Positions 10,810 to 30,350 of a stretch of DNA of 31,801 bases are shown piece after piece; position 1 is the first letter of the stretch, and every line of letters starts with the position of its first letter. The stretch is from positions 1 through 31,801 of the IMG/VR virus record IMGVR_UViG_3300045135_002353, one strand, 5' to 3'. The notes under the pieces were generated by a model. It worked only from the letters and a program-made list of their open reading frames with translations. It was not told where the DNA came from and ran no database searches. The DNA is from a virus. The translations under genes and the position numbers were made by a program.

Positions 10810-11469
10810 CTATATTTCTGGGAAGAGACAGGTTTGAATGAATCTGTTCACTGTATCTGGATCGTATCCAAGTGATTCCATGACTCGCGGGGTGTGGGGG
10901 TTTTGCTTCTGGTAGTGGCAGTAACGATTCTGTGCTTCTGTATAGTCCGATGAAGTAGTATCTTCATCTTCAAGGTAATCTAGATATTCCAATAGATTGC
11001 AGGCTGACAAATTAAGTACTTCATCTAGTTCTTTTGCGTCTCTTATATTACCAGCTGATACCATGTTCTCTGAAAATATTGCCTTTGCCCATGGCGGTAG
11101 CTCACGCTTCTTGCTCCAAGAATAACCTTCTACCCTTTTAGCAAATGTATCGTTTAGAGGGTGATCACATTTTATAGGGCTAAAGTCGTGAAATGCACCA
11201 GTTACCTTGTTCGGTCCAGCAATGAGATCAAATCCATATACAGGTGCAGAAGAGTTTACCGAGGGGAATACACAAAGGTGCATCATATAAAGCTTTTTCT
11301 CTTCTCTCTTATCGACAATATCAATATGAGCTCGGCGTGCACCTTTGCCGTTATAGACTAGATTATCCCAAGGGAAGTCGTGCGTCTCGTCCGCGCGAGA
11401 GAGTCTAGAATTAAGTATAGCTTGAAGATTTTGAGCATGCTCTTCTAATCTATTAAAGATTAAACTCAT
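10810..11469 (-). CDS. pcyX: Ferredoxin-dependent bilin reductase (PcyA/PcyX type)
   Basis: The 219-residue protein starts at the ATG at 11467-11469, with GAGG 9 bases upstream. A frame extension to 11505 lies inside the heme oxygenase gene and is rejected. The fold signature is continuous: ARRAHIDIVD (D50), LYMMHLCVFP (H64), APVYGFDLIAGP (D81), VTGAFHDFSP, then a C-terminal NRYCHYQKQNPHTPR and FIQTCLFPE. This matches HY2-family reductases, which use reduced ferredoxin to reduce biliverdin IX-alpha. The His in the HLCVFP segment corresponds by position to PcyA His88, and the Asp in YGFDL to PcyA Asp105. This favours the PcyA/PcyX side over PebS, though pebS or pcyA remain possible names. The gene overlaps heme oxygenase by 17 bases. 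PcyX enzymes from oceanic viruses make phycoerythrobilin. Confidence 0.85.
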   Translation of the reverse strand: MSLIFNRLEEHAQNLQAILNSRLSRADETHDFPWDNLVYNGKGARRAHIDIVDKREEKKLYMMHLCVFPSVNSSAPVYGFDLIAGPNKVTGAFHDFSPIKCDHPLNDTFAKRVEGYSWSKKRELPPWAKAIFSENMVSAGNIRDAKELDEVLNLSACNLLEYLDYLEDEDTTSSDYTEAQNRYCHYQKQNPHTPRVMESLGYDPDTVNRFIQTCLFPEI

Positions 11470-11983
11470 CAGTAAGATCCTCAAATAATGAAATAGCAAA
11501 CTCAAAGGCTACACGTGCTTCGGGACCTAGATCATCAGTAAGCTTTGCTCTTGTCTTTTCGATTAGGCCTTTGCGATCCTCAAACTCATACATTGAACCT
11601 GATCCAGGCACACGAGACTTTAAGATCTGCCCGCCATATAGATCGCCAAAGTGTCGAGTGTAGATATGAGCAAGTACGTTTTCGTTTAGCTCAGATAAAT
11701 GGTTAATGTACATAAAGGTAGTTGTTGCAACTACAAGAGTGTCATTCTCTACACCAAGCTCCTCTATATCCGCTCGAATAGCATCAGCTCTTTTAATGTC
11801 TTCAATACCTTCTAAGACATTTTGGGAATCAGCTACCTTTTCCAAGACAGAGTATATTAGCCATAGATTAGAAAGATAGCTAGCATACTGGTGTTCATTA
11901 ATATCACCAGAAAGAAGTAATTGAGCAAACTTATTCTTTTCTGCTTTCTCGTGTAAATCCCATGTAATATCTTTTAAGCTCAT
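11453..11983 (-). CDS. ho1: Heme oxygenase (short phage form)
   Basis: This protein of 176 residues cleaves heme to biliverdin, CO and Fe(II) using reduced ferredoxin or a similar donor. The proximal heme ligand is visible in ITWDLHEKAEK (H11). The distal-helix signature, RHFGDLYGGQ at about 110-119, matches the RHLGDLSGGQ hallmark of the family. I prefer the ATG at 11981-11983 because it forms an ATGA overlap with the oxygenase stop. An ATG at 11998 would add MEKRK inside the preceding gene. Cyanobacterial and many phage heme oxygenases are about 230-240 residues, so this is a short form lacking a C-terminal extension. The bilin reductase follows with overlap, implying substrate hand-over of biliverdin. 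Confidence 0.92.
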   Translation of the reverse strand: MSLKDITWDLHEKAEKNKFAQLLLSGDINEHQYASYLSNLWLIYSVLEKVADSQNVLEGIEDIKRADAIRADIEELGVENDTLVVATTTFMYINHLSELNENVLAHIYTRHFGDLYGGQILKSRVPGSGSMYEFEDRKGLIEKTRAKLTDDLGPEARVAFEFAISLFEDLTDEFNL

Positions 11984-12561
11984 TTTCCGTTTTTCCATTT
12001 AGGCAGTTTAGGATCCGTCTCGGCGGGGTGCCTTGCTAATCCCCATATGACTAAAGAGTATCTATTACCCCACCAAACAGTGTTTGCTTCATGTAACATA
12101 AGGGATGGAAATGCTATTAAACTACCCTGTGTTCTCGGTTGAACTTTAGCCTTGCTATGATTATGTATGGTAATACCGCCACCAATATAATCTTTCGGAT
12201 TACTTAATTCTATAGTAGCAGATATAGTTCTCATAGGTGCTACCTTCTGAACATCAACATGTGCTTTATAAAACCCTATAGGCTTATATGCTGTAAACTG
12301 TGGGTCTTCAAAGGTAGTTATTTCGGTCTGATGTAGCTTCCAAGCTATATCTATTATTATATTCTGCATGCGCTTTACTAAAGGCTGCAGAGGATGATCC
12401 TTTCCCCTTATAAAAGATACCTGACTTTTTCTTACCTTCTTAGCAACCTCTATACCGCCACCAACCATGGCCTGCTTAACCCTGTGGAGTTGATCGTCAA
12501 TAATAGCTTGACACTCCTCTGGGGTTAACACGTTCTTTACGTGGGCAATCTCATTACGCAT
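11980..12561 (-). CDS. 2-oxoglutarate/Fe(II)-dependent oxygenase (prolyl-4-hydroxylase-like)
   Basis: The 193-residue protein has a complete double-stranded beta-helix active site. The iron ligands are H101 and D103 in FYKAHVDVQ, and H157 in SLMLHEAN. The 2-oxoglutarate arginine is R167 in GNRYSLVIWG. The preceding RTISATIELSNPKDYIGGG is typical of PKHD/P4H-type phage hydroxylases. The N-terminal LTPEECQAIID is also usual in this family. Substrate is unknown: protein prolyl, sugar, nucleotide or small molecule hydroxylation are all possible. The start overlaps the methyltransferase end by 8 bases and the end overlaps heme oxygenase by 4. It shares the need for Fe(II) released by its neighbour, but a functional link is only inferred. 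Confidence 0.88.
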   Translation of the reverse strand: MRNEIAHVKNVLTPEECQAIIDDQLHRVKQAMVGGGIEVAKKVRKSQVSFIRGKDHPLQPLVKRMQNIIIDIAWKLHQTEITTFEDPQFTAYKPIGFYKAHVDVQKVAPMRTISATIELSNPKDYIGGGITIHNHSKAKVQPRTQGSLIAFPSLMLHEANTVWWGNRYSLVIWGLARHPAETDPKLPKWKNGK

Positions 12562-13219
12562 GATTTATTTTCATATACCAGATATCTTCAGGCCATACCC
12601 TAGAAGGGAAAGCCTTAGTTATTTTTAAGCTATTTTTTTTAATCATATCTTTAAAGGTATTAATATTTGATCCCTTTATATTTTCCATTAGGAGAATACA
12701 CCCATCCTCTGCTAAATATTCTGAAACGTTATTAAAAAAATCTTGATGAACCTTCCAGTCTTTATCTAGATGCTTTCTATCTTCGTTATAAAGATCAAAC
12801 TCCTTTTTATTTTCTGGTTTCCAGTTATCATCGAAATTAAAATGGGGGGGATTACCAAATATTACATCAAATTTTATTTTAGGTATGTTATTAAAATTAT
12901 CAGAGTGAATAAACTCTGCTCTATCCCCTAGACAGTTATCCTTAATAGACTTATTAATAACCTTTATTATTGGTTTATGTATGTCAGAAAAAACACAATA
13001 ATCTATAATATTATATCTTAAAAGAATAAATCCGATATATCCGGGGCCAGAACACCATTCCATTCCTTTTTTAACGGATTTCCCCTCTAATAGGGTATAA
13101 AAAGAATTTGCAATATCCGTTATATGCTTTAACCCGTAGCCGTCAAGCTGACCCGAAGTGGATATTGAATATCCATTAAGATCAACCTGAACAATCTCTC
13201 GAGGATCCGGTCTATCCAC
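12554..13219 (-). CDS. HemK/PrmC-like SAM methyltransferase with GNPPHF motif
   Basis: The 221-residue protein has motif I EWCSGPGYIGF (about 54-64), an acidic post-II residue in FSDIHKP, and motif IV FGNPPHF (about 121-127). The NPP[YFH] motif IV is typical of enzymes that methylate planar nitrogen (Gln in release factors, adenine, guanine). The start is GTG at 13217-13219 and overlaps the carbamoyltransferase stop as TAGTG. AT content looks higher here than in the flanking structural genes. Possible substrates include protein Gln, nucleobases or an amino-sugar; the sequence does not decide. The PPH in place of PPY may narrow substrate choice. Confidence 0.8.
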   Translation of the reverse strand: MDRPDPREIVQVDLNGYSISTSGQLDGYGLKHITDIANSFYTLLEGKSVKKGMEWCSGPGYIGFILLRYNIIDYCVFSDIHKPIIKVINKSIKDNCLGDRAEFIHSDNFNNIPKIKFDVIFGNPPHFNFDDNWKPENKKEFDLYNEDRKHLDKDWKVHQDFFNNVSEYLAEDGCILLMENIKGSNINTFKDMIKKNSLKITKAFPSRVWPEDIWYMKINHA

Positions 13220-15027
13220 TACAGTATATCTATATTCGGTCTAGTAATTAGCTTACCGTATTCTGGAAGGTAGAGATATTGAATATCGCTTTGTTCAAGT
13301 GTCCAGATAGCATCATCTAATGTTTCGACTAAAGGTTCACCACCAAGATTAAACGAAGTATTAAAGATAATAGGACATCCTGTCTTTTCTTTAAATTGTT
13401 TAATAATTCTATAATAAAGCGGATTATCCTCTTCTGTTACTGTCTGTATACGACATGTTCCGTCAACGTGGATAATAGAAGGGATTTTTTCTTCAATACC
13501 TGGCTGACAGTTAACAGCATACATCATATGGGGTGAATCTTTCATACCACGTAGATCAAACCATTCATGTACGTCTTCAGCAAGAATAGATCCAGCAAAT
13601 GGACGGAAATATTCTCGTCGCTTAACCTCGTTAACAAAGTCTTTACCGTCTTTAAAAGTAGGATCAAACATTAACGATCTATTACCCAATGCACGAGGTC
13701 CGTTTTCAGATCTACCCTGAAAACAACCAACAATATTTTTAGAGGTCATTAAATTAACAACATCCTCATCATTTGCATCTTTTACAGAAGCACCATACTT
13801 GTTGGCTATTTCTAGAATTTGATCATCAGAATAATCATACTCGAATCCTAGATAAATATCACGACCATTAAGCTTTTCTGTATCCTGGGATGTTTCGTAG
13901 TAGCCCCAAAGAGCTACCCCGATTGCAGTACCACCGTCATTGGAGATAGGCTCAACATATAAATTAATACCTGCTTTATTAATTTCATCTAAGAAGTAAT
14001 AGTTAGCTACACAGTTAAGAGCATAGCCTCCAGAGAATACTACATTCTTTTTACCAGACATCTTTGATGCTGATAGTATAATATCTAGTACTTCCTTTTG
14101 TGTTTCAGTCTGAAGAGCGTAAGCCATATCTCTACGGTTTTGCATTGTAGTAGGGTCAATTCCTGGCTCTGGTCTTTCAGAAAGATATTCAAACCACTGA
14201 TCATTAACTATTGCACCTCCAGGATATCTTGGAGTAATTAAGTTTCTGTTTGATATTGAGAATCTTCCGTCTTTTGTAAAAAGCTTAGGTATTTTATTAT
14301 TTGGTTTTCCGTAGGGAAATAACCCCATAGTTTTACCAGCTTCAATTCCTGAGAATCCAACGTATTCTGTCACTGCTTCATATGTTTTAGTAATACCTGC
14401 ATGGCCAGTTTTTAAAGATACGTGGGTACCTTCTTCTCCCAAATATTCAGACGATTCATTAAAATCTACTGCAGAAACTATAGAATCTCTAGATGCGGAA
14501 TGCTTATATAAGGTTTTAAAGTTAGCTGGATAAGAACAGTCTAGTATAGTTTCTACTTCCCATAAAGAAATTGGATCTTGCCCAAATTTTCCGTACTTTA
14601 CTGACCCAGCACCATCTACCACAACAGCAACTGCTTCATCAAATCCAGATCTATAAAAAGCACAAGATGCATGAATCTTGTGGTGCTGTGCTGCTAGATC
14701 GATAACTTGGGGGTGATTTTGCAAATCAACATTTTTTCTATCTATTAAACCAAGTTTTCTAGCATATCCGGTAAAATCATCATCTCCTGTATAATCAATT
14801 TTACCAGCTGTATCTTTTAGAGCTTGGGTATGAGATACAAAGATATAGTCAACTTTGTCTGTATAATCTAATACCTTGTGCATAGCAGCAAAAGGTCCAC
14901 CGTCGTACTTTTGTCTAGATAATCTTTCTTCCTCGATAGCAAATACTATTTTGCCGTCTTTTAGAAGACATGCACCAGCATTATGGCCTCGGGAAATACC
15001 TAGGATATATCCTGTTTGATTAGACAT
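13219..15027 (-). CDS. O-carbamoyltransferase (NodU/CmcH/TobZ family)
   Basis: The 602-residue product matches the full two-domain family length. The N-terminal Kae1-like half has ILGISRGHNAGACLL, the metal-binding HHKIHA (about 115-120) and VVVDGAGS (about 135-142). The centre has NVVFSGGYALNCVANY. The C-terminal half has QGRSENGPRALGNRSL and NTSFNLGGEPLVET. These enzymes make carbamoyl-adenylate from carbamoyl phosphate and ATP and transfer the carbamoyl group to a hydroxyl, often on a sugar. Related genes occur in marine T4-like phages, and in other phages carbamoylate modified cytosine. The acceptor here is unknown. A GAGG element precedes the ATG, 24 bases after the glycosyltransferase gene. 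Confidence 0.94.
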   Translation of the reverse strand: MSNQTGYILGISRGHNAGACLLKDGKIVFAIEEERLSRQKYDGGPFAAMHKVLDYTDKVDYIFVSHTQALKDTAGKIDYTGDDDFTGYARKLGLIDRKNVDLQNHPQVIDLAAQHHKIHASCAFYRSGFDEAVAVVVDGAGSVKYGKFGQDPISLWEVETILDCSYPANFKTLYKHSASRDSIVSAVDFNESSEYLGEEGTHVSLKTGHAGITKTYEAVTEYVGFSGIEAGKTMGLFPYGKPNNKIPKLFTKDGRFSISNRNLITPRYPGGAIVNDQWFEYLSERPEPGIDPTTMQNRRDMAYALQTETQKEVLDIILSASKMSGKKNVVFSGGYALNCVANYYFLDEINKAGINLYVEPISNDGGTAIGVALWGYYETSQDTEKLNGRDIYLGFEYDYSDDQILEIANKYGASVKDANDEDVVNLMTSKNIVGCFQGRSENGPRALGNRSLMFDPTFKDGKDFVNEVKRREYFRPFAGSILAEDVHEWFDLRGMKDSPHMMYAVNCQPGIEEKIPSIIHVDGTCRIQTVTEEDNPLYYRIIKQFKEKTGCPIIFNTSFNLGGEPLVETLDDAIWTLEQSDIQYLYLPEYGKLITRPNIDIL

Positions 15028-15051: not shown

Positions 15052-16080
15052 TTATTTCTTAGCAAAGGGGGGAGAAAGTGGTTGCCCAGCTTTACCGTGG
15101 GAACAATTAGGCCCATGAACATGGGGAGTATTTTCTATATTAGATTTCGTATTTTTGGATTTACCTAGCTTATTTGTAACGCTTTTAATAGCTTTGTTAA
15201 TGGTGTCAGAGGACATAATCATAAGATCCTCATTATTACGTTCACCGGTATAGTCGTAGGTAATTCTCATAGGAATATATTTTCTTTTGTCTTTACCATT
15301 ATCTATGATGGTAAAATCTTTATTATCTGGATAAGATATATTCTCAGGACAGGTAGATCCAATAATTACAGTTGCTGGCTTTTTTAAAGCATGGGCGTAA
15401 TGCTGACCCATACTGTCACAACCAAAGAAATAATCCGCAGCATTAATAATACCCATCCATTGTAAAAGATTAACATTAGTAGGCATTGCTATACCGATTT
15501 GATTTGGTGGGGGAGGTACTTCAATATTAGTCATCATAATTACAGAATAGTCTTTAGACAGTTTTTCTGCTATATCATAAACGTCTTTAAGTTCTATAGA
15601 TCGTCCAGAAGAATCAAATATGAAATTACCCTCAGACTGAACCCCAGATCCAAAGGGCTGAAAAACCACAACTTTTTCTTTACCTAGGGATTGTCTAGTT
15701 TGCTCGACTAGGTTGTATCCATATACTTGGTCAACCTTATTAATTTCAAGATTAAATTTCTTGGTCTCTGGTACTTCCTTTAGATCGTTTATAAGAATAT
15801 CAAACGCTTGGATCAAATTACACTTTTGATTAAAGTAAGAATTTAATCTATATGGTTCGGGTGAGATTATTTCGCGATCCTTTAGCTTTTCCTCAAATAG
15901 ACCTTTATGACCCATAGGAAATACATTATCGCGAATAACGGGAGAAGCCATGAATAGCTCGTTCCAAGCCTCTGCTACGATTACAACATCTTCGTCAACA
16001 TTTTGCTTGTGCCATTCGAGAGCTGGGATAGAGCAGAGCACACGCCCTGCACCACCATTAATAAAAAAAGCTTTCTTCAT
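15052..16080 (-). CDS. GT9/heptosyltransferase-like glycosyltransferase with C-terminal His/Cys tail
   Basis: The 342-residue protein has the GT-B pattern of ADP-heptose:LPS heptosyltransferases. The start is FINGGAGRVLCSIPAL, the linker VVVFQPFGSG, and the nucleotide-sugar site LLQWMGIINAADYFFGCDS followed by MGQHYAHALKKPATVIIGST (about 205-243). It lacks the longer N-terminal domain sequences of enterobacterial WaaC, and the usual DSGPMH reads CDSMGQH. The C-terminus adds a low-complexity linker and an HVHGPNCSHG motif (320-329) that looks metal-binding, then a Pro-rich end. It is the first gene of the six-gene island. A sigma70-like promoter lies 47 bases or more upstream, and TAGG precedes the ATG. 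Likely role is adding a sugar to a host glycan or phage component that the next gene carbamoylates. Confidence 0.75.
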   Translation of the reverse strand: MKKAFFINGGAGRVLCSIPALEWHKQNVDEDVVIVAEAWNELFMASPVIRDNVFPMGHKGLFEEKLKDREIISPEPYRLNSYFNQKCNLIQAFDILINDLKEVPETKKFNLEINKVDQVYGYNLVEQTRQSLGKEKVVVFQPFGSGVQSEGNFIFDSSGRSIELKDVYDIAEKLSKDYSVIMMTNIEVPPPPNQIGIAMPTNVNLLQWMGIINAADYFFGCDSMGQHYAHALKKPATVIIGSTCPENISYPDNKDFTIIDNGKDKRKYIPMRITYDYTGERNNEDLMIMSSDTINKAIKSVTNKLGKSKNTKSNIENTPHVHGPNCSHGKAGQPLSPPFAKK

Positions 16081-16165: not shown

Positions 16166-17374
16166 TTAATCAGTATCCCAGGATATACAAATTAAGCCAG
16201 CTCTTCCCGTTCCACCAGGACACGCATTACATCCTCCATAGACGGAACTACCTACTGCTCCCATCCCAGGGACACACATTCCACTCGCTTGCACATTAAA
16301 GCAATGCCCGTTGCAGGTGCTTCCGGTAAATGGGATATAACCGTTTTGTAAGGGATCTGTGCCGTCTTGTTGTTTAGTAAATCCATATACAGGAGCAGGT
16401 TGGGAAAATCCTGAGTCCTGCATAGAGGCTCCAATAGCAACTTCGGGATATATTGTAGGAATTCCTCGAATTACCATATTCTTATTCGTAACCTGTTCTA
16501 TCGCCCCGGTTATAGATGGTATTCTACAACCATATATTGGAGGCATATATGCGTCATCGGCTCCCGTATCCCAACAGTAATGCCAACCGTTCCCGCACTC
16601 CATAATTGAACACTCATTACATAGATCAGCACTAAGGGTGGTTAATTCAGCGCCAACACTAGTGCTTTGCCCTGCTTTAATACTGGGCAAATTATTATTG
16701 CAAGCGGTTGTATACCCAGAAAATGTTTGGCAGGTCCTGCAATTCCACTGACAAACACATGATAGATCTGCTCCGGGTGCGCAGAGTTTAAAAACAGAAG
16801 AACTCCCACCAGCTACATCACCGCCATTAGGATTACCGCAATAACACATAAATGATCCACAAACACCGCCCGGAGCGCCAATAGTAGTATTAGTTGCACA
16901 GCAGCAATATGCACACCCTCTACAAAAGCAAAATACCTCACCAGGACACACGTCAATCTGGGCTACTACATATGATCCATTTATTCCAGGAGGGCTCATC
17001 CCGCAGCAGCACATTGCCCCGGAACCACCGCCAGCTCCCCACATTTGAACTGTTATTCTACTTGTATTTGCTGGTACGGTCCATGCAAACGCATTTCCGC
17101 ATCTATAATTACCCGATGTATCAAAGCAACAAAGAGAATTAGCCTTTGGCGTAGTATACGGGTCTATATTAGTTCTCCATTCCGAAATCATTGTACTACG
17201 CCAGATTGATGCAGCATCACCGCTTTCGATCGGATAAGAACTTACAATACCAGAGCTGTCGCTGCTATTACTTCCGGACAAGTCATAGGATGGGTTTACC
17301 GCGCCTGCTGCTGAACCAGTACCGTATAATTTATCCTGAGCTACTATAGATGCATATAATAATAAATCAGCCAT
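16166..17374 (-). CDS. Cys/Gly-rich fibre or adhesin-like protein, paralogue 1
   Basis: I count about 33 cysteines in 402 residues, including CCC clusters. After a non-Cys N-terminal 80 residues comes FAWTVPANTSRITVQMWGAGGGSG, the beta-sandwich followed by a Gly-rich turn found in many phage fibre tips. Then come stretches such as GEVFCFCRGCAYCCC and FMCYCGNPNGG. The overall plan, and segments such as WxVPAGxT..xQ(L/M)WG.GGG, Cys-rich patches and a Gly-rich C-terminus, match the protein at 18096-19226. AGGAAA precedes the ATG. It belongs to a late unit with the 17386 gene. A receptor-binding tip with disulfides or metal sites is a reasonable inference. The family is not one I can name. Confidence 0.7.
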   Translation of the reverse strand: MADLLLYASIVAQDKLYGTGSAAGAVNPSYDLSGSNSSDSSGIVSSYPIESGDAASIWRSTMISEWRTNIDPYTTPKANSLCCFDTSGNYRCGNAFAWTVPANTSRITVQMWGAGGGSGAMCCCGMSPPGINGSYVVAQIDVCPGEVFCFCRGCAYCCCATNTTIGAPGGVCGSFMCYCGNPNGGDVAGGSSSVFKLCAPGADLSCVCQWNCRTCQTFSGYTTACNNNLPSIKAGQSTSVGAELTTLSADLCNECSIMECGNGWHYCWDTGADDAYMPPIYGCRIPSITGAIEQVTNKNMVIRGIPTIYPEVAIGASMQDSGFSQPAPVYGFTKQQDGTDPLQNGYIPFTGSTCNGHCFNVQASGMCVPGMGAVGSSVYGGCNACPGGTGRAGLICISWDTD

Positions 17375-17385
17375 TTTTTATTTCC

Positions 17386-18060
17386 TTAATCTATTTCTGG
17401 TAGCTGGTTAAATAGTAACTGTATGCTAACAGGAATTTTAGGTATTTCTGTAATATCCATAGTTATATATTTCCATGGATATGCAGTCTCTATAGTTTCC
17501 AAATACGTGTTAATTGCCAGGATAAATGAATCTATTTTAGCTTGATCCGAATCATCAAAATCGTATGCATCATTATATTTTTTAACCTGTGCTAGTCTAG
17601 AGGTAGCAGTAGTTTTTAAAACATTTGAAGTTTCTTTATAAATTGGATCAGCAAAGCATTCTGCTTGATCGGGAGAGCTACTATTAATTCTATAGTTTAC
17701 TATAAAATAATCTCTTAAATCCGGATTTGTAATTTTTTGATAAATTGATCCATCGTGATTAATCTCATCCTCGAAAGTATGAGCTGTATCACTAGTACGG
17801 GGGTAGAGGAGCTGGGCAAGATCCGGATTATCCTCAGAATTAACTGTTATAACATACTGAAAAGATGATTTTTCTTCTTCAGTGAAATCGTCTGCTTCGA
17901 CCTCATCATCTCCATACCTTAATTCTAAAAGGCTTAAATTATGATCTAATCCAATATAAAAATATTGAGGCCCTTCATATGTATATGTTTTTGTTAATCC
18001 GTCTTCCCAGCTATTTACCCAAAGCTGGTCAGGAACATTAACTGTAAATTCTTTTTGCAT
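17386..18060 (-). CDS. Acidic protein between the Cys-rich paralogues; assembly partner candidate
   Basis: The 224-residue protein has no recognised domain and only one Cys (AECF), unlike its neighbours. It starts with KEFTVNVPDQLWVNSWEDG and a beta-rich acidic half. The C-terminal part, about residues 155-215, is helical with ARLAQVKKYND-like and FILAINTYLETIE segments ending in a WKYITMDITEIP stretch. This layout resembles tail-fibre assembly chaperones, which often follow or precede a fibre gene. A late promoter lies 25 bases upstream, and GAGG precedes the ATG. It is co-transcribed with the 16166 gene. The chaperone idea is inference only. Confidence 0.55.
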   Translation of the reverse strand: MQKEFTVNVPDQLWVNSWEDGLTKTYTYEGPQYFYIGLDHNLSLLELRYGDDEVEADDFTEEEKSSFQYVITVNSEDNPDLAQLLYPRTSDTAHTFEDEINHDGSIYQKITNPDLRDYFIVNYRINSSSPDQAECFADPIYKETSNVLKTTATSRLAQVKKYNDAYDFDDSDQAKIDSFILAINTYLETIETAYPWKYITMDITEIPKIPVSIQLLFNQLPEID

Positions 18061-18084
18061 TTAAGGAATTCCTCTTTAAATTTA

Positions 18085-18092
18085 TATTTATA
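18085..18092 (-). promoter_or_regulatory. T4-type late promoter before the 224-residue gene
   Basis: There is an exact TATAAATA on the minus strand, 25 bases before the ATG at 18060, in the gap after the 18096 gene. Confidence 0.75.
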
Positions 18093-18095
18093 ATA

Positions 18096-19226
18096 CTAGC
18101 AATAAGTTACTCGAATAGCTGCACCACGACCCGTATCACCGCATATAGTATTGCCACCGCCCATAGCATGGCTAAATACAGCTCCATGACCAGGCATACA
18201 GGCAAATAGCGCTGAGGCCATACCAGCTGAAGCGGTAGAGCATGCACCTCCACAGCAGTTACCCGAAGTAAACGTAAAGCAGCAGTCCGAATTAGGAGCC
18301 TTTTGTGTTGTTGGACCGGTCGGGCCGAAACATACTGTTGGAGCATATTGGACAAAACCATAATGGCTTACATTGAAACAGAACGCATTCCATCTTATAG
18401 GGATAAATCCACATTCTGGATTTCTTGCAGAATCAATAGCTGTAGTAGATGGAGTACAATGACTAATAATATATGGTATTATTCCTTGGGTCGACCGAGA
18501 ACCACCAGTGCAATAATCATAGCCTGAGTTACAGAAACAACCTCCAGTGGGATCAGGCGAATAAGGGCTTTGCATTCTGCAAACCCTAGTATTTTTCTTT
18601 ATATCCCCATCAGAATAATCTAAGTATTTTAATTTCTCAGTATCAAAGCCAAAAGTATAAGCATTAGTACCATTAGCAATAGAGCAAGACCAAGAGCATA
18701 AAGTCCCACACCCTCCTTTAGCACAGAGGGTAGTAATACCAGGTCCTGTTACACACGATATCCCACTGGTTAGCTGTATTCCACCCTGTCTGCCAAGGCA
18801 GCAATTGTTACAGCCATTACATAATATATAAGAATCGCCGGGTGTTACGTCCATTATTACAGAAACAAATTCACCTGTGGAACCTCCAGGGTGTCCGCCA
18901 CAGCAGCAACCTGAGGAAGATCCGCCTCCTCCACCCCAAAGTTGAAATCCTGCTTTAGTTACTCCTGCCGGTACTACCCAAGTACATGTAGATTGGCATC
19001 TATTATATGAAGGATCCCATACACAAAATACACCAGCGGTGCCGTCAGGACAATCTGAGAGTAATCCGGTATCATCTAATTTAGGTATAGATTCAGCCCA
19101 AGTATTTGGATCCATCTTAGTTAAATTATCTATCTCGTCTTGTGATAAACCAGTAGAAAGCTGGCCAGCGGCGTCTGCTGCATCCAATACTTTTAATATC
19201 TGATTATATATTATAGCATCTGACAC
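18096..19226 (-). CDS. Cys/Gly-rich fibre or adhesin-like protein, paralogue 2
   Basis: I count about 32 cysteines in 376 residues. An N-terminal helical segment (AIIYNQILKVLDAADAAG) and a WAESIPKLDDTGLL stretch come first. Then TWVVPAGVTKAGFQLWGGGG leads into SSSGCCCGGHPGG and later NGCNNCCLG, SDCCFTF and GNCCGGAC. The last third is Gly/Ala-rich and ends in a Cys. The start is GTG at 19224-19226 with GGAG upstream. A late promoter octamer is 28 bases upstream, so this gene has its own unit. Such Cys density is unusual for a cytoplasmically assembled virion protein. Metal binding, disulfides formed outside the cell, or dense packing in a glycine-rich sandwich are alternatives. Confidence 0.7.
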   Translation of the reverse strand: MSDAIIYNQILKVLDAADAAGQLSTGLSQDEIDNLTKMDPNTWAESIPKLDDTGLLSDCPDGTAGVFCVWDPSYNRCQSTCTWVVPAGVTKAGFQLWGGGGGSSSGCCCGGHPGGSTGEFVSVIMDVTPGDSYILCNGCNNCCLGRQGGIQLTSGISCVTGPGITTLCAKGGCGTLCSWSCSIANGTNAYTFGFDTEKLKYLDYSDGDIKKNTRVCRMQSPYSPDPTGGCFCNSGYDYCTGGSRSTQGIIPYIISHCTPSTTAIDSARNPECGFIPIRWNAFCFNVSHYGFVQYAPTVCFGPTGPTTQKAPNSDCCFTFTSGNCCGGACSTASAGMASALFACMPGHGAVFSHAMGGGNTICGDTGRGAAIRVTYC

Positions 19227-19266: not shown

Positions 19267-22200
19267 TTAAACAACAGTTATAGTATCAATTAGGTTTGTT
19301 GTTGCATTATAGTTCAATGTAATGTTCTGTGTTGTTATGTTTGATCCTGAACCAAATGATTCGGTCCAAGATGATAGTCTCCAATAGCGGGTATCGTCTC
19401 CCCCAAAAACACTCCAATCGGTACCAGCATGATACCAAGTAACATTGGTGTAAGTAATATCGTCGGCGATTGCTGAACTAATATTACCGTTTGCATCAAA
19501 AGTAACATTAGAGTAATCAAATGCTTGGGTAGAGAACCTACCCAAGCTTCTCGCATCTACATAGGTTTTAACAGCTTGTTCTGTTGGTACTGCAATGTTT
19601 GAATTACCAGCCAATGTGCCATCAGATGAGAATTCGTTAATTGATTCACCGAGCTGCGCACCGATCGAACCAAGTCGTAAGCTAGTCAAACCAGCTAGGT
19701 TAAAGGCGTTAGCATTTAGTGTTGCTGTACCTGTTGCCTGATCGATCTTAAAGAATTCACCAACTCGGAAGTTACCGTTTTGGTCAGTAGACACGTAGTA
19801 TACACGACCAGGGAACGTCTCCTGGATTTCATTGCCTTGTGCAGGTGGTTGAGTAGGTTCGTTCGGGTGGTTTGTTGTAACAGTACCACCAGTACCAATC
19901 TGTAGGAAGTCATGACCTGTCAGACGTACTTGTGAGTAGTTATAACGTACTGTAGCAGCTACACCCTCAGCTGAACCTGTAGGTTTCTCCTGTGAAAGAA
20001 CCACAACCATATTTGATGTATTATCTACATAAGTTCCAGATACACTCTGAATTACATATGAGATACTATCATCAGCAAGCGAGATACTGCCACCTGGCCT
20101 TGGTTCAGCAGAAAGACCCGTAAGAATTAGAATAAATCCTCGAACATCTTGTACAGCGCCAAAGTCTGCTGTAAAGAGACCACCGCTTGACGTTGTAAGA
20201 TTATTACCTGCTCCAAATGTTCCTACAACATTTTCAACGTAAACCTTATCAGCCGAATATTGAATATTCAGAATATCAGCAGTAGCACCAGTTACGTCGT
20301 CTGTAATTGTATCCCCAACGTTAGCTGTACCACTTATGTACACTGCGTTTAGTTCTTGACCTACGACTGTACCTGTTAGAGGTACTTCTGCAGCATCGAA
20401 ACCGCTTGATGATGCACCGTATGTACCATATGAACAGTTACCGTTAAGTGAACGAATTTCTGATCCATTTGTACAAGTGTATCCGAAGTAACAGAAGTAT
20501 GTAAAGTTAGATACTAACTCTGCTAAACCGCCGTTATCAACCCAATATCCTACACCGTTGTCGGATATAATAGTATAACCGTGGAAGATCATACTCTTAT
20601 TACCGCTACCGTGCAGCGTGCCGTCGATATATGCGCCAATACCGCCATCTCCAATAAAGGAGCATTCGAGTACGTATGGTGACTTGGTAGAAACTGGGGA
20701 TAGCTCGTTAAATGCTACCGCGATACCAGCTGGTGTTGATGTAGTAATATCATCTGCCGTAGAGCCAGGAACCCAACCGGTCATACCCTTAAACGTCATT
20801 TTGTTCAGGATAGCACCGTTAGATAACTTCCACATTGTACCAGTCTCAAAGCCTGATGCTGCATGAACCGATACAGTACGTTGGTTATCACCTACAACCG
20901 CTGTATTACTTCCTACTACAATTGGAAGTTCTTCTGTATAAGAACCGGTCTTAACAAAGATTGTAGCATTGTCACCAGCTTGCTCACATGCGTACTTAAT
21001 TGAGGCAAATGGTGTTGATTGGTTTCTACCTGAATGAGGAGTATCAACACCATGTGGCGCTACATAATAGACCTTATCGGATTCAGTAGCACCAATAAAC
21101 TGAGAGGATGTTCCTGAATTAGTAACAGTTAGTGAACGACCAGCAACACCAACATCACCAACTTGATCTTCTACAAGATTTGTAGCAATTCTATCTGTTA
21201 AATCGTAGTAGACTACGTCACCTTGATTGGTATCAGGCATTGTCTGAATTTCACCAAGGTGATTAAGTATAGAAAAGCCAATGAATTCGTACTTTTCAAA
21301 TGGTAGTCCGAAGTCTTTGAGCTCTTCAATCTCCGGAGTAGCTTTCATGTAAGCTTCTACAAGAGAATCAAAGATATATTCACTTGGGATTTTAATTACA
21401 TTATCGACGCCGTTAATAGCTACAAAGTATGTAATAGTAAACTTACCGGCCGGGATATTATTAAAATCGTACTGTCCAGCAGTATTTTCATTATATTGAG
21501 GTACAGGAGTTAGATTGGAGGTAAATGTTGCTCCAGATCCTGTTGGGGAGGTAATAATAATATCTGCATAGGTATATTGCTTACCCCCATTCGTCACGGT
21601 AACAGATAGAATACTACTTGCCTCCGTTGCAGAATCAAAGGCTGCACCGTTTCCAGCTCCAATATTACCTAGAGAAAGTGTAGCTGTAGTATATCCAGAT
21701 CCAGGATCTGTTAATGTAAGACCGTTAATGGTGTTACCTGAGGAAAGTGCAGTTGTAATAGAAGCTGGTGTAGGTGCATTTGGTGAATTTGGGGATCCAC
21801 CATCTAGTACAATACCAAATCCATCTTCTACAATACTTACTGTAGGATTAACTGTGTAGTTTTTACCACGGGCATCATTATTTTCAAAGCTAATTGAAGC
21901 AATTGGATAACCACTTAATCTTGGCTCTGCAGTAGCACCAGTACCATCACCTGTAATTGTCATTGTAGCGTAGGTATAGTTATAACCAGGGTTTGTAATT
22001 ACAATATCAGCCACACCACCAGCAGTAATAGAAGCAGTAGCAGTAGCGCCTTGTCCATCCCCGTCAATTGTTACCGAAGCTGTAGTATATCCAGAACCAA
22101 CGTTTGTAATAAGATAATCCACAATCTCATTTTTTAACGTGTAAACTGTAGCTGCTGCGCCAGTACCATCACCGGTAATCTCTACGGTTGCTGTGGTATA

Positions 22201-25200
22201 TCCAGTGCCGGCATTTGTAATGTTAATATCTGATACTGCATTAGCAGTAATAGTAACATCAGCTGTTGCTCCAGTACCATCACCTGATATTGTTGCTGTT
22301 GCTGTAGTATATCCAGAGCCAAGACTATCCATTTGAATAGCAGCAATTGGTGTACCTAGATCTAGGGTATGAGATATTACTGCACCTTCACCTGTTGTAT
22401 CACCAGCATCGTTAACAACTGTAATAACTGGATTAGTATAACCGGATCCGGGGTTAGTTAAATTTAATCCGCCGCCAGCCTGTGTTGCAAGGTTTTTACC
22501 AGCTGGAATATCTACTGATACTGTTGCTCCTGTACCATCACCCGTAATTGCTGCTGTTGTTCCAGCATCATAATCATAACCACCGTCCGTTAGTGTAACA
22601 GATGCAATAGGAGCAGCAGAGAAGCCAAGCTCAACTGTTGCTTCTGATCCATCCCCCTGTACTACCGCTGTTGTTGTTGCACCTCTATAACCAGATCCGC
22701 CGTTATCAACTGTAACAGAGCCAAGAATACTTAACTTGTTGGATATTAAAGTATTACCAAAATCTGATATCTTCCAATCAGTTGCAAGACGAGAAGCAAA
22801 CTTATTTGATGTCTTAATTGGTGCATCGATTCTTAGATCAGCGTTTCGAAGTACACCAGCAGAGGTTGATACGTAGTTTTCTGATCCAGCAGTTGCAGTT
22901 AGACCAAAACCGCTAATTACCTGCAAGCCATCTGTATTAATAGCATAGACTAAGCTATCACCATCAATTGAAATACCGTGTCTTTCATCTGAGATGTAGG
23001 TAATACGGTTATTAGATGGACTAATATAGAGTGAAGCAACTTGAGCGTTGCTAATTAATGATGCATCGTCGCGAGTAGTTGAAGTGCTTAATACGCCATC
23101 AGCAAAGTGGAAATAATGGTATAATGTAGGTGTACCAGCTAATGTAACTGACTCTAGTGCAGTCTTTTCGTATCTTACGCCGTTAACGTAGTAAGTAAAG
23201 TTAGCTTGACCTGAAGCAGGATACATAACCAACGTATTTGCAGTAGCAGCAACTGAGTATGCTGTACCAGTAGCAAAGGTTGAATCCTCCCGCTCTGTAA
23301 CAACGCCATCTGTACCAATTGAATAGACTCTTGTACCGTTATCAGAGAATTCGATAATACCACGTGTAGTTGGATGACTGTTATCGAAGCCTGTTGGATC
23401 AAGAGAAGTGTTAGTGTAAGTAGTACCACCGATACCGGTATCTAATTCGCCAGTAAGATATGTGTTACCTGTAACACTCAGTGTCTCATCAACGACGACT
23501 GTATCGATGCTAGCAGTACCATCAATGTAGATATCTTTCCATTGCTTAGTTGCTGTACCTAGGTCGTAGGTATCATCGATATTTGGAATAACGTTTGAGT
23601 TAACATCCGCACCGAATACAACGTTATCTGCATCGCCATCACCAAGCTCAATTGTACCACCGTTAAATGCAGTTGTACCAGTAACTACAAGGTTGTTGTT
23701 AATGGTTGTAGTACCAGTAGCAGCACCAATACTAAGAGATGTAGCATCACCAGCAAAGTTAACTGTCTCAGCATTTGCATTAACAATGTTAATAGAAGTT
23801 TGAGTAGTATCTAAGTTACCACCGTTAAGGTTAATATCACCTGCAACCGTAACTTCAGCAAGGGTTGAAGCTGCGTCAATTGAAAGTGTAGCACCATTCT
23901 GAAGAGTAACAGAGCCACCATCTACAGTGATGTTAGCACCATTTTGCAGTGTTAAACCAGCACCACCAAGGGCAGTATTATCAAATACTAATGGGCCTTC
24001 AACCGTACCACCGTCTGTTGCATTAACGAAACGGTCAACATAAGATTTAGTTGCAGCATGAAGAGCATCAGTAGGATCTGCAAACAATGTAAGGTAACCC
24101 AACATTGTATCGCCATCTTTTGACAAGAAGCCTTCAGCGCCAGTAGCGAAGTTTTCCCATTCAGGTGGAACAGGATCGCTTGCTGGGCTATTACCACCAA
24201 TCACATCTTCGCTTGCAATATAAGATGATGAACCAGCTTTAACTACATCATCTTTAAAATATTGAGTACCTGATGACCAGACGCCTCTCCAACGAATGCC
24301 AGAGTTAAACTTCTGCCAATATCCGTTAGTATCGTTATCTACATTGAAGTCTGCATTTGATGCGTGTGGTACGATACAGATAAAGGTGTTACCACCATAT
24401 GTAACTACTTCGTCTGTAGCATATTCAGTTGAAGCTGTCCATGGACCTGTTACTTTAATGCCTGATACGATCTTTGTCCAATCTGCAAGATCGGAAGGTG
24501 TATCCCCAATTGTATCAACATCTGCTTGGTATAGTGAACCACCAAAGCTAACAACTTCATTAATGTAGTATTGAGTTGTTGATGAATAATCGCCTTGGTA
24601 TGAGAAACCAGCAGAGAATCTATTCCAGTTATTTGTATCTGTCGGAACGTTAGCTACTGTTTCGATACTAGCAATATAGTTGTTGCCACCATATGTTACG
24701 ATATCACCGATGTAATATGTTGTGGCGTTAGAGTAATCACCCTTATATGAGGTACCAGCACCGTAAAGTACCCAATCCACTAATGTAGTTGGGTTTGTGC
24801 CTACTTGGGTAGTAGTTGATCGATAAGACTGATTACCATATGCAACAATATCACCATCGAAATAGGTTGTTGCTATATCCCAATCACCCTCAAAGGAAAC
24901 GCCGCCAGTTAGTTTTTCCCAGCCTGTAACAACTGTAGGAAGGACTGCAGTTTGTGTTTCTCGCGATCGATATAGGGTATTACCGTAAACTACAATATCG
25001 TTTACATAGTATTCTGTTACGTTATCGTAGTTACCTAAGAACTTAATACCACCTACATAAAGCTCCCAATAAGTCGTATTGGAAGGAGCATTACCTGTTG
25101 ACTCGATCTTGGCACGATAGATGTTTGCGCCATATGCTACCAAGTCGTTTGGTACGTATGCTGTAGCATCGTTATAGACACCTGAAGGACTAACACCTTC

Positions 25201-25674
25201 TACAAACTTATCCCAGAAGGTAGTATTTGTAGGAAGATTGCTTGTGGTATCTTGTCTTGCAATGTAGATTGAACCACCATATACGACCACATCATTCTTT
25301 TGATATGGGGTGTTCTCGTCATATGATCCTTCGTACTGAATACCGTCTAAGAACCTGCTCCAATATGTTGCATTTGGAGGGGTAATATTAAATGAATCTT
25401 TAACCGATACGTATACAACACCACCGTGTGCAACAGTATCACCAATCTTATAGTTAACTGCTGTATCGAATTCACCCTGGAAGTTGAAGCCTTCAATCAT
25501 TAAGGCCCAATGGGTATCTACAGTGGGTAATACACCCGATGACTTTAATGCATAGGTATAGACATATACATTACCACCATATTTTACGATATCATTTGAT
25601 TCGTAGGTGGTAGAGTTACTCCAGTCCCCTGCAAAGTGAAATCTTAATTTACCTAAATCTATTAGTTGTGTCAT
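19267..25674 (-). CDS. Giant mosaic tail-fibre protein (2135 residues)
   Basis: Several regions follow in order. Residues 14-516 are ten repeats of about 49 residues with the pattern W/Y..xTxYxxxDxVxYGGxxYxxxx....P....W...xxG, like carbohydrate-binding CBM5/12-type units. Residues about 530-980 form a fibre shaft (TLFADPTDALHAATKSYVD and NGATLSID-type beta segments). Residues about 985-1390 hold units of GSGYTTAT..I.GDGTGATA. From about 1530 comes a YYVAPHGVDTPHSGRN.STPFASIKYAC start, typical of right-handed beta-helix (pectate-lyase-like) domains. The C-terminus has FPGRVYYVSTDQNGNFRVGEFF and a SLRLGSIGAQLGESI segment known in T4-like marine phage fibres. The start overlaps the preceding stop (ATGA). 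It probably forms a long host-binding fibre with glycan-binding repeats. Confidence 0.85.
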   Translation of the reverse strand: MTQLIDLGKLRFHFAGDWSNSTTYESNDIVKYGGNVYVYTYALKSSGVLPTVDTHWALMIEGFNFQGEFDTAVNYKIGDTVAHGGVVYVSVKDSFNITPPNATYWSRFLDGIQYEGSYDENTPYQKNDVVVYGGSIYIARQDTTSNLPTNTTFWDKFVEGVSPSGVYNDATAYVPNDLVAYGANIYRAKIESTGNAPSNTTYWELYVGGIKFLGNYDNVTEYYVNDIVVYGNTLYRSRETQTAVLPTVVTGWEKLTGGVSFEGDWDIATTYFDGDIVAYGNQSYRSTTTQVGTNPTTLVDWVLYGAGTSYKGDYSNATTYYIGDIVTYGGNNYIASIETVANVPTDTNNWNRFSAGFSYQGDYSSTTQYYINEVVSFGGSLYQADVDTIGDTPSDLADWTKIVSGIKVTGPWTASTEYATDEVVTYGGNTFICIVPHASNADFNVDNDTNGYWQKFNSGIRWRGVWSSGTQYFKDDVVKAGSSSYIASEDVIGGNSPASDPVPPEWENFATGAEGFLSKDGDTMLGYLTLFADPTDALHAATKSYVDRFVNATDGGTVEGPLVFDNTALGGAGLTLQNGANITVDGGSVTLQNGATLSIDAASTLAEVTVAGDINLNGGNLDTTQTSINIVNANAETVNFAGDATSLSIGAATGTTTINNNLVVTGTTAFNGGTIELGDGDADNVVFGADVNSNVIPNIDDTYDLGTATKQWKDIYIDGTASIDTVVVDETLSVTGNTYLTGELDTGIGGTTYTNTSLDPTGFDNSHPTTRGIIEFSDNGTRVYSIGTDGVVTEREDSTFATGTAYSVAATANTLVMYPASGQANFTYYVNGVRYEKTALESVTLAGTPTLYHYFHFADGVLSTSTTRDDASLISNAQVASLYISPSNNRITYISDERHGISIDGDSLVYAINTDGLQVISGFGLTATAGSENYVSTSAGVLRNADLRIDAPIKTSNKFASRLATDWKISDFGNTLISNKLSILGSVTVDNGGSGYRGATTTAVVQGDGSEATVELGFSAAPIASVTLTDGGYDYDAGTTAAITGDGTGATVSVDIPAGKNLATQAGGGLNLTNPGSGYTNPVITVVNDAGDTTGEGAVISHTLDLGTPIAAIQMDSLGSGYTTATATISGDGTGATADVTITANAVSDINITNAGTGYTTATVEITGDGTGAAATVYTLKNEIVDYLITNVGSGYTTASVTIDGDGQGATATASITAGGVADIVITNPGYNYTYATMTITGDGTGATAEPRLSGYPIASISFENNDARGKNYTVNPTVSIVEDGFGIVLDGGSPNSPNAPTPASITTALSSGNTINGLTLTDPGSGYTTATLSLGNIGAGNGAAFDSATEASSILSVTVTNGGKQYTYADIIITSPTGSGATFTSNLTPVPQYNENTAGQYDFNNIPAGKFTITYFVAINGVDNVIKIPSEYIFDSLVEAYMKATPEIEELKDFGLPFEKYEFIGFSILNHLGEIQTMPDTNQGDVVYYDLTDRIATNLVEDQVGDVGVAGRSLTVTNSGTSSQFIGATESDKVYYVAPHGVDTPHSGRNQSTPFASIKYACEQAGDNATIFVKTGSYTEELPIVVGSNTAVVGDNQRTVSVHAASGFETGTMWKLSNGAILNKMTFKGMTGWVPGSTADDITTSTPAGIAVAFNELSPVSTKSPYVLECSFIGDGGIGAYIDGTLHGSGNKSMIFHGYTIISDNGVGYWVDNGGLAELVSNFTYFCYFGYTCTNGSEIRSLNGNCSYGTYGASSSGFDAAEVPLTGTVVGQELNAVYISGTANVGDTITDDVTGATADILNIQYSADKVYVENVVGTFGAGNNLTTSSGGLFTADFGAVQDVRGFILILTGLSAEPRPGGSISLADDSISYVIQSVSGTYVDNTSNMVVVLSQEKPTGSAEGVAATVRYNYSQVRLTGHDFLQIGTGGTVTTNHPNEPTQPPAQGNEIQETFPGRVYYVSTDQNGNFRVGEFFKIDQATGTATLNANAFNLAGLTSLRLGSIGAQLGESINEFSSDGTLAGNSNIAVPTEQAVKTYVDARSLGRFSTQAFDYSNVTFDANGNISSAIADDITYTNVTWYHAGTDWSVFGGDDTRYWRLSSWTESFGSGSNITTQNITLNYNATTNLIDTITVV
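21500..22720 (-). repeat. In-gene tandem units encoding GSGYTTAT...GDGTGATA
   Basis: Within the giant fibre gene, short near-identical DNA blocks recur, for example the plus-strand run agtaccatcacc at several positions. They encode repeated G-S/T-G-Y-T-T-A-T and G-D-G-T-G-A-T-A motifs with variable spacing. They are protein repeats on a coding frame, not a CRISPR or transposon. Confidence 0.7.
24129..25635 (-). repeat. Ten tandem ~49-residue carbohydrate-binding-like repeats
   Basis: Residues 14-516 of the giant fibre gene hold ten units. Eight are 49-50 residues and the last two are expanded (54 and 56). Each has a conserved aromatic start (GDW, GEF, GDY), a central D-x-V-x-Y-G-G-x-x-Y and a closing W before a Gly. 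Unit divergence at the DNA level suggests old duplication. Confidence 0.8.
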
Positions 25675-26838: not shown

Positions 26839-27039
26839 TTACTCTTCGGTTATATCCTTGACCTCGATCTTTTCCCATTTGCCTATCGGGCATCGAGCTC
26901 CGGATAATCTAGTTTTGGCTGGCATAAAGCAGCCGCACTTCTTACATACGTTTATATTAGGTATAAGATGAACACACCTTCCGCAGAGAGCAATTCTTCT
27001 TGCTACTTCTGGATGTCCCTTACCTTCTACTATTGACAT
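26839..27039 (-). CDS. Mini zinc-ribbon protein, 66 residues
   Basis: The sequence has CGRC, then CKKCGCF and ARCPIGKW, so six cysteines in a C-x2-C...C-x2-C-x-C...C layout. This is typical of a small treble-clef or rubredoxin-like zinc fold, as in DUF6171-type phage proteins. AAGGA precedes the ATG, and a late promoter is 19 bases upstream. It sits in a fibre-gene neighbourhood but carries no fibre motif. Its function is unknown; nucleic-acid or protein binding are possible. Confidence 0.7.
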   Translation of the reverse strand: MSIVEGKGHPEVARRIALCGRCVHLIPNINVCKKCGCFMPAKTRLSGARCPIGKWEKIEVKDITEE

Positions 27040-28663: not shown

Positions 28664-30340
28664 TTATTGCGTGAACCAGGTCGTAGACCTAGAAGTCGTA
28701 AATGTTGTTGTTACGTTATCGTCTGTGAGCCAAGATGTAATAACCTCTGTATCTCGCGACGTTTCTTGCTGCGTTAGGTAATCTGTATCATATGTAGTCG
28801 TAGTTTCTCGAGTAGTTGGAACTTCATATGCAGTAGCACCAGTATTCTGCAGGTATGTAGTTGTGGTTGTACGAGAAGTACTCTGAGTAGTTATGTAATC
28901 AGTATTTCTATATGATGTTGATATACCAGACTCGGTTGGATATGTAGTAGGCTCCAATATAGAACTAAAAGTAGTTGAAAAACTAGTATACTGCGTTGTA
29001 CCCGGAGTAAGCTGGGTATACTGTGTTGGGTAAGTTGTGGACCCAGTATATTGTGTTACATAGACGTTATACCCTTCGCCCTGTGTAGGAACATAATAGC
29101 TACTATCATAGGTGGTAGTCCCAGGGGTATACTCAGTAACAGTTGTGTTAGCGTATATAGTATCCCTAGAGTAGAGCGTAGATCTTGAGCTTGGAGGTAC
29201 ATATCCGCCAGAGGGATTAGCCTCAATTATTGTTTGAGTAGTATTACAACTCAAAGAGCAATCTTGGCAGGTGCGCGCTAAATATGAAATAGTTGTATAT
29301 TGATCAAGCGTATATCCTGAATTATAAAACACAGTAGAAGATACAGGGAAATTCTGGTAAGACTCGTTAATTACAGTAGTATAAACAGCCACTTGACATG
29401 GTTCGCATCGAGACTCTACGTCTTGGCAATATGCAACTACGCCTGGATCCGAGGATGGATAACAGTCAAACACCCCATTATCGGGGTCAGTTTGGCCAGA
29501 CTCATAACCAACAAACTGGCTTGTGGTAGAAAATGATGTTACAGTCGAAACATACTGGGAAACATAAAAGGTTGGTTGACTATATGAATAAGCAGTTAGT
29601 ACCTGCGCTGGACTATAATAATTTACACCAGGAGAGCATGATACAACTGAGCAGCCGGCCGGTATAGGATCTTGTCCAGAAGGAGAACCATCTACATTGT
29701 AGTAGTAACATCCTGATGCAGAAGACGGGTATGAGTACGATGTAGTTGATGTACTGTATGTAGTAAAGAAATACCCAGTAACAGTTGTATTCTGGGAATA
29801 ATCTGTTGGCCTGGTAAGGTCGTACGAGGTAATATTAGTATAAGTAGTCGGCCGCGTAACTTCTGAAGTGTATAATGTATTATACGTATAAAAGTAAGTA
29901 TAATTAGTAGGTGTTGGAGTAATTACAGCAGCAGTAGTATTTTGCGGTGTATAACTAGTATACACCGTTCCCTGAGGAGTAAGGATTGTATCAATCGACG
30001 TATTATAATTACCTTTAAACGTATCATTACTAGTCGGAGTATATAATGTAGTTACATCATATGCGGTTGATACAGCATAAACCCAAGATGTAGGAAAATT
30101 TGTAACAAAACTGCTTGAGTATTCAGTATCTACACCAGGATCAGTAAATAGGGTATCGAAGGTAGTAGTAGTTATATTCGACGTAGGGGTAGGTGTATAC
30201 CACTGGGTTATATAAGTGGTAGGAGACAGCGTAGGAGCTGAAGTAGTAAAACTAGTATTAGTTAGCCTAGATGTAAGAAAGCTAGTAATAGCTGACGTGT
30301 ACTGACCTTTTGGAGTACCTAACCAGAGTCTACGTGACAT
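28664..30340 (-). CDS. Thr/Ser/Tyr-rich repetitive virion protein
   Basis: The 558-residue protein is dominated by Thr, Ser, Tyr, Pro and Asn in short degenerate runs such as TTTYLQNT, TTYDTDYLT and TPTPTNYTYFYTYNT. It has few charged residues and almost no Lys after the first 30 residues. About ten cysteines sit only in the middle (about residues 209-363), with SCSPGVNYY and ESRCEPCQ. The start used is the ATG at 30338-30340 with AAAGGA upstream. An in-frame start at 30379 lies inside the preceding gene. The opening, RRLWLGTPKG, is a plausible attachment segment. No known domain is recognised. A surface fibre or a heavily modified (possibly glycosylated) filament is inferred. Confidence 0.65.
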   Translation of the reverse strand: MSRRLWLGTPKGQYTSAITSFLTSRLTNTSFTTSAPTLSPTTYITQWYTPTPTSNITTTTFDTLFTDPGVDTEYSSSFVTNFPTSWVYAVSTAYDVTTLYTPTSNDTFKGNYNTSIDTILTPQGTVYTSYTPQNTTAAVITPTPTNYTYFYTYNTLYTSEVTRPTTYTNITSYDLTRPTDYSQNTTVTGYFFTTYSTSTTSYSYPSSASGCYYYNVDGSPSGQDPIPAGCSVVSCSPGVNYYSPAQVLTAYSYSQPTFYVSQYVSTVTSFSTTSQFVGYESGQTDPDNGVFDCYPSSDPGVVAYCQDVESRCEPCQVAVYTTVINESYQNFPVSSTVFYNSGYTLDQYTTISYLARTCQDCSLSCNTTQTIIEANPSGGYVPPSSRSTLYSRDTIYANTTVTEYTPGTTTYDSSYYVPTQGEGYNVYVTQYTGSTTYPTQYTQLTPGTTQYTSFSTTFSSILEPTTYPTESGISTSYRNTDYITTQSTSRTTTTTYLQNTGATAYEVPTTRETTTTYDTDYLTQQETSRDTEVITSWLTDDNVTTTFTTSRSTTWFTQ

Positions 30341-30350
30341 TATATTTCCT

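Follow-up and report, generated by a model that had tools for sequence, protein, structure and literature searches.

Two cysteine-packed genes at a probable tail-fibre locus

The stretch of viral DNA analysed here, IMG/VR record IMGVR_UViG_3300045135_002353 at its full length of 31,801 nucleotides (the window), carries on its minus strand two paralogous genes with products packed with cysteine, which we read as hyper-cysteine tail-fibre tips. Tip A (P0002; 18096..19226, with a GTG start) has 376 residues, 32 of them cysteine (8.5%), and is predicted to consist of an N-terminal helix followed by a TNF-like/glycine-rich fold, while its paralogue, tip B (P0001; 16166..17374), has 33 cysteines in 402 residues (8.2%). 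These extreme contents had been put forward in an earlier reading of the letters (the original prediction) and the counts are exact. The window's other 28 genes average 0.77% cysteine; A and B lie about tenfold above this, and the binomial chance of the content of either at that rate is ~10^-22. The expectation that such levels are rare in virion proteins also agrees with the published phage figures of 0.7–2.1%, with 2.1% in the structural proteins of phage Milano and 0.9% over the proteins of T4 (PMC10811340). Phage structural proteins with 8–13% cysteine would lie well beyond this range.

The two proteins are paralogues, as had been proposed, with 34% identity over residues 64–374 (311 residues, E 7e-15), and share the W-x-VP start, the WG-x-GGG run and a CCC cluster directly after it. 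In A this cluster lies behind a WGGGGG run at residues 107–109 (18900..18908, minus strand, computed from the start of the open reading frame (ORF)) and in B at residues 122–124 (17003..17011, minus strand). There is also a second cluster, beyond those mentioned in the original prediction: CxxCxxCC at residues 136–143 of A (18798..18821, minus strand), where each cysteine is present in 94–100% of 70 close relatives, and CxxCxxCCC at residues 151–159 of B (16898..16924, minus strand). The original prediction placed the CCC clusters in glycine-rich loops. They lie right behind the glycine run, but in the predicted model of A the cysteines as a whole are not confined to loops: 17 of the 32 are in coil, against 66% coil overall, and a restriction of the cysteines to glycine-rich loops was dropped.

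Relatives and conservation of the cysteines

A scan with the 376-residue protein alone gave no matches; alignments were needed, followed by scans of viral contigs. Across the fetched loci these gave 304 distinct full-length family members with a median of 10% cysteine (range 5.4–12.3%). Prochlorococcus phage P-SSM2 has the same three genes in the same order (PSSM2_304/305/306, with 36, 0 and 36 cysteines, annotated as hypothetical only), as does the single-cell virus AG-345-F15, and the Synechococcus phages S-SSM7, Sf-FS3, S-CAM1 and S-CAM3 each have three tandem copies with 24–36 cysteines per copy. Genes of the psbA type were found on 3 of the 14 contigs tested and the named isolates infect Prochlorococcus or Synechococcus, so that most of the group, at the least, would be cyanophages. 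For the window, which has a heme oxygenase gene and no psbA, we infer the host: the source virus, read as a T4-like marine phage, is most likely a cyanophage. A scan of host genomes gave no match in cyanobacteria and one weak match in a Chitinophagaceae metagenome-assembled genome. At 11453-12561 (minus strand) this heme oxygenase gene adjoins a 2OG-Fe(II) oxygenase gene, as is typical of cyanophage auxiliary genes.

The cysteines are under purifying selection. The original prediction was to fall if cysteine positions were not conserved among homologues, and the homologue search gave the opposite: cysteine was the best conserved of the residue types tested over the range of 45–97% identity. 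At 45–60% identity aligned cysteines were kept in 91% of cases, compared with 78% for glycine, 64% for tryptophan and 56% for all residues, the pair counts taking in related sequences and so not being independent events. The nearest relative is 73% identical to the window in each of the two genes; it retains 64 of the 65 window cysteines, and 20 of these 64 codons have changed synonymously. With this degree of retention, non-conservation does not hold. In A, Cys136, Cys139, Cys143 and Cys239 are invariant in the 70 relatives, and Cys77, Cys81, Cys108, Cys109, Cys142, Cys168 and Cys232 are present in 94–99% of them. Retention of the packed tips, and of the order of their genes, in hundreds of related viruses shows that the cysteines are clearly needed.

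Predicted fold of the tips and a candidate chaperone

An AlphaFold2 model of A, built from 92 sequences, had a predicted local distance difference test score (pLDDT) of 76.5 and a predicted template modelling score of 0.77, with residues 187–213 and N-terminal parts being poor. In a fold search of the PDB the top match to this model was the fibre protein gp24 of phage Pam3 (7ypx_A; Z 12.0, 192 residues, 3.2 Å), followed by the Bxb1 tail tip (Z 11.0) and the glycine-rich domains of ALK and LTK (Z 7–10); the next match was at Z 4.2. PDB sequence searches with the family profiles found no relative. Matches in BFVD were to the P-SSM2 and S-CAM3 relatives and then mostly to viral proteins described as 'glycine-rich domain-containing', and 14 of the 92 relatives match Pfam PF21722 Gly_rich_2 (E <= 0.01), some of them above the curated cut-off. 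One locus (L040:4469-7169) has three tandem glycine-rich relatives with 21–25% glycine and 16–25 cysteines, a possible intermediate between glycine-rich and cysteine-rich tips.

Between the two tip genes is a cysteine-poor gene that the original prediction had passed over, P0003 (17386..18060, minus strand; 224 residues, one cysteine). It belongs to phrog_9740 (E 2e-7) and has no relevant Pfam match itself. In profile–profile comparison it matches the proteins found at the same place in S-SSM7 and the S-CAM phages (97.6% probability, E 4e-12), and these relatives connect it to PF16778 Phage_tail_APC, which S-SSM7_118 matches above cut-off (1.1e-9). The P0003 model (pLDDT 94.9) has a beta-rich N-terminal part and a helical tail, which alone resembles the lid helices of DnaK in the PDB fold search. 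It would seem likely that A and B are two fibre tips with P0003 acting as their common chaperone. The suggestion in the original prediction of fibre-like receptor-binding tips is supported by the predicted fold (Pam3 gp24 and the Bxb1 tail tip), by the long tail-fibre-like protein next to them and by the chaperone relative alongside.

The conserved cassette

The tail-fibre-like protein is encoded directly upstream of the tips (19267..25674, minus strand) and has 2135 residues with 0.3% cysteine; P-SSM2, S-SSM7 and S-CAM1 likewise have an annotated 'tail fiber protein' on that flank of their cassettes. Most of the ~170 loci have the order tip–candidate chaperone–tip or tip–tip–tip–candidate chaperone, then a GT9-like (heptosyltransferase-like) gene of phrog_8954 and an O-carbamoyltransferase gene. 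In the window these last two lie at 15052..16080 and 13219..15027 (Nol-like), both on the minus strand. The GT9-like gene is downstream of the tips in 145 of the 146 cysteine-anchored loci with at least 2.5 kb of downstream sequence. Its match to PF01075 is weak, with E 0.027 for the window protein, under the cut-off, and 22.0 bits (1.1e-4) at a cut-off of 22 for the S-CAM1 relative. Heptose-pathway genes adjoin the cassette in P-SSM2, S-CAM1 and S-CAM3. Distant relatives of the phrog_8954 gene (15052-16080 in the window; L182:5989-6726) are found beside tail genes of Vibrio phages such as D505, where the adjoining tail protein has 41 cysteines in 1757 residues.

To avoid selecting on cysteine, loci were also fetched by the GT9-like gene alone, giving 62 usable loci and 69 in a more distant set; some contigs are in both the cysteine- and GT9-anchored sets, and close relatives are counted repeatedly. 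The first set is uniform: each of its 62 loci carries an ORF of 5% cysteine or more upstream of the GT9-like gene. In the distant set 63 of the 69 have a cysteine-packed upstream ORF and the other six a protein of 22–29 cysteines with a local density of 7–11%. For nine of the 131 GT9-anchored loci, the family profiles recognise none of the proteins in this place. Unrecognised proteins of this kind, with ~8–13% cysteine at the same gene position, were located at L180:3015-6160, L181:5117-5965, L235:4523-5425, L268:4674-5516, L283:1394-4947, L284:2116-4913 and L286:2017-5162. They make up at least two sequence families, again before the GT9-like and carbamoyltransferase genes. One type comprises AG-345-P14, L235 and L268, the first two being 36% identical over 162 residues, and another comprises AG-345-O18, L283, L284 and L286, with proteins of 674–894 and 257–290 residues and ~9–12% cysteine. 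A further, glycine-rich type of 530–575 residues could be a distant form of the fold predicted for the tips. As proteins unrelated by profile are cysteine-packed at the same position, the cysteine-packed state tracks the gene position and its neighbours, not one sequence family. In the cyanophages P-SSM4, S-SM2, P-HM2 and Syn1, which have no GT9-like match, no plausible hyper-cysteine protein was found in the ~49–50 kb of tail-fibre region examined in each.

The N-terminal region of the L235 protein has a cysteine every few residues (NTNTCVGNVLTCVQ...) and looks repeat- or coiled-coil-like with cysteines at set positions, with a cysteine-rich domain after it. Elsewhere in the window, a 66-residue ORF (26839-27039, minus strand) has six cysteines as CxxC-type pairs (CGRC...CKKCGC) and is zinc-ribbon-like, and a Thr/Tyr/Ser-rich protein of 571 residues (28664-30379, minus strand) has 10 cysteines and is without a Pfam or PHROG match.

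What the cysteines may do

On balance, we favour A and B being chaperone-assisted receptor-binding tail-fibre tips that are stiffened by disulfides, a hyper-cysteine version of the Pam3-type fibre. In Pam3, gp24 forms a trimeric receptor-binding fibre, built of an N-terminal helix, a TNF-like domain and a glycine-rich tip, and folds with the chaperone gp25 (PMC9608196). By analogy, the N-terminal helix of each chain would dock and trimerise, and the loops of the TNF-like sandwich behind it would form the distal tip. P0003 would guide the tips as they fold and form trimers in the cytoplasm of the host, at a stage when the cysteines remain thiols. Once lysis has released them into oxygenated seawater, the conserved cysteines would most likely form a dense set of disulfides, within and between chains, stiffening the tip and taking over part of the role of the glycine-rich motif lattice of Pam3. 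Reportedly, in work by Yang et al. in PNAS in 2023, the Pam3 fibres are themselves disulfide-linked to the baseplate. Disulfide hardening, also raised in the original prediction, is the leading mechanism and a plausible one, the disulfide network of the contractile tail of Milano being a precedent (PMC10811340).

A number of observations weigh against this interpretation. Neither window tip matches Gly_rich_2 at the cut-off, their glycine content is only 13–14% overall with few glycine runs, and the P0003 model had no convincing match to any solved chaperone in the PDB. The cysteines also show little sign of pairing. An even count is found in only 51% of the relatives, with no preference for even numbers. 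Between close relatives, differences of one cysteine (455 pairs) outnumber those of two (254 pairs), and among the latter swaps (157) outnumber joint losses (97). Along the tree 12 cysteine pairs had at least three joint changes, where 5.4 were expected (p 0.01), which is only slightly above chance, and the controls behaved alike (23 against 15 expected for glycine, 40 against 26 for alanine). Because these controls show a similar excess, the co-change of the cysteines is not evidence of disulfide pairs. The pattern of parity, loss and co-change is unlike that of a protein with fully intra-chain disulfides, though inter-chain bonds could blur the signal.

The lack of an even-number rule would fit metal-loaded tips, with the clustered cysteines (CCC, CxxCxxCC, CxxC) binding Zn, Cu or Fe(-S), either structurally or as a cargo carried to the host surface; this would resemble the Ferrojan horse hypothesis with thiolate in place of HxH ligands. 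Published work places iron in HxH motifs of T4 gp37, and fibres of marine phages have motifs of a similar kind (PMC11705849). Binding of a metal, Fe-S or heme-like ligand had been raised in the original prediction, and motifs such as CxxCxxCC, near invariant in close relatives, speak for it. Cys77, Cys139 and Cys142 are moreover lost together across subfamilies (r 0.81–0.92), as for a multi-ligand site, but this coupling runs along the splits between subfamilies and may reflect common descent. HxH is absent from both tips, and no match was found to a Pfam metal-protein family (E <= 1) or, by sequence, to a solved metal protein in the PDB, with ferredoxin, rubredoxin and zinc ribbon all among those missing. 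We consider metal loading unlikely, though it is the main alternative. It is less likely still that the GT9-like protein puts a sugar, possibly heptose, on the tip cysteines and the O-carbamoyltransferase decorates it. The position of the GT9-like gene after the tips, the cysteine-packed or cysteine-enriched proteins upstream of it even where the tips are unrecognised, the nearby heptose-pathway genes and the four cyanophages with no GT9-like match and, in the regions examined, no hyper-cysteine protein would all fit such S-glycosylation. The similarity to GT9 is, however, weak, the linkage would also fit modification of host lipopolysaccharide or of another fibre, and conservation this strong is more in keeping with buried structural residues than with acceptors at the surface. 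Such attachment of sugars to cysteine, with carbamoylation, is doubtful, but would explain the cysteine packing of different tip families at this position.

The many cysteines without a pairing signal might instead be free thiols that act at the host surface, through thiol–disulfide exchange with envelope proteins, as a means of covalent attachment or as a trigger rather than as structure. Contraction of the Milano tail in vitro does require reduction of disulfides (PMC10811340), but free thiols would have to survive oxygenated seawater and the number of conserved cysteines exceeds the need for a few reactive ones, so that this appears very improbable. Finally, the enrichment could be without function, the composition of a rapidly evolving fibre locus having simply drifted. 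While the tips do evolve fast overall, with pairs at 30–45% identity being common, the conservation of the cysteines, the synonymous changes at the kept codons and the cysteine richness of further proteins in the same place refute this, and we give it next to no weight.

Significance and comparison with known systems

Neither the fold nor the pairing of a fibre with a chaperone is new. In the CC-licensed literature searched we found no description of the hyper-cysteine tips, their spread, their recurrence in other tip families or the linkage to the GT9-like gene. Hundreds of phage contigs preserve the cysteine packing, and further tip proteins in the same place have it too. Named laboratory hosts exist for P-SSM2, S-SSM7, S-CAM1 and S-CAM3, so that whether the tips are disulfide-hardened, metal-bearing or S-glycosylated is directly testable, and the outcome bears on host recognition and possibly on the question of metal carriage by phages in the ocean.

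The direct relatives at the same gene position, PSSM2_304/306, SSSM7_114-116, SXBG_00224-226, phrog_35878 and phrog_4205, have 25–36 cysteines each and are annotated only as hypothetical or of unknown function. The relatives that match Gly_rich_2 share the W-VP...WG-GGG start with the window tips, which differ in being cysteine-packed. ALK and LTK have a similar TNF-like plus glycine-rich arrangement to that of the predicted model, although these are animal receptors and we do not claim common descent. Unlike the iron-binding tips of the T4 gp37 type, the window tips contain no HxH. The Agrobacterium phage Milano is likewise a contractile phage stabilised by many disulfides, fibre attachment included, but its cysteines are spread across sheath and baseplate with no hyper-cysteine tip (PMC10811340).

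Pam3 gp24/gp25 (PDB 7ypx; PMC9608196) is the closest system, with the best structural match, the same succession of helix, TNF-like sandwich and loop tip (predicted for our tips), an adjoining fibre-assembly gene (with P0003 as the candidate here) and a cyanobacterial host (probable for the window). It differs in its distal domain, which has 39% glycine with GGGGxGG motifs and for which the paper is silent on cysteine (PMC9608196), whereas the tips of the family have 8–12% cysteine and, in most relatives, ~13–17% glycine. The cysteine-rich family also has two or three paralogues per locus, and the model of its spacer protein P0003 is without a match to PDB chaperones. Because the dense glycine lattice is missing, we class the tips as a variant of the Pam3 gp24 type rather than a member of it.

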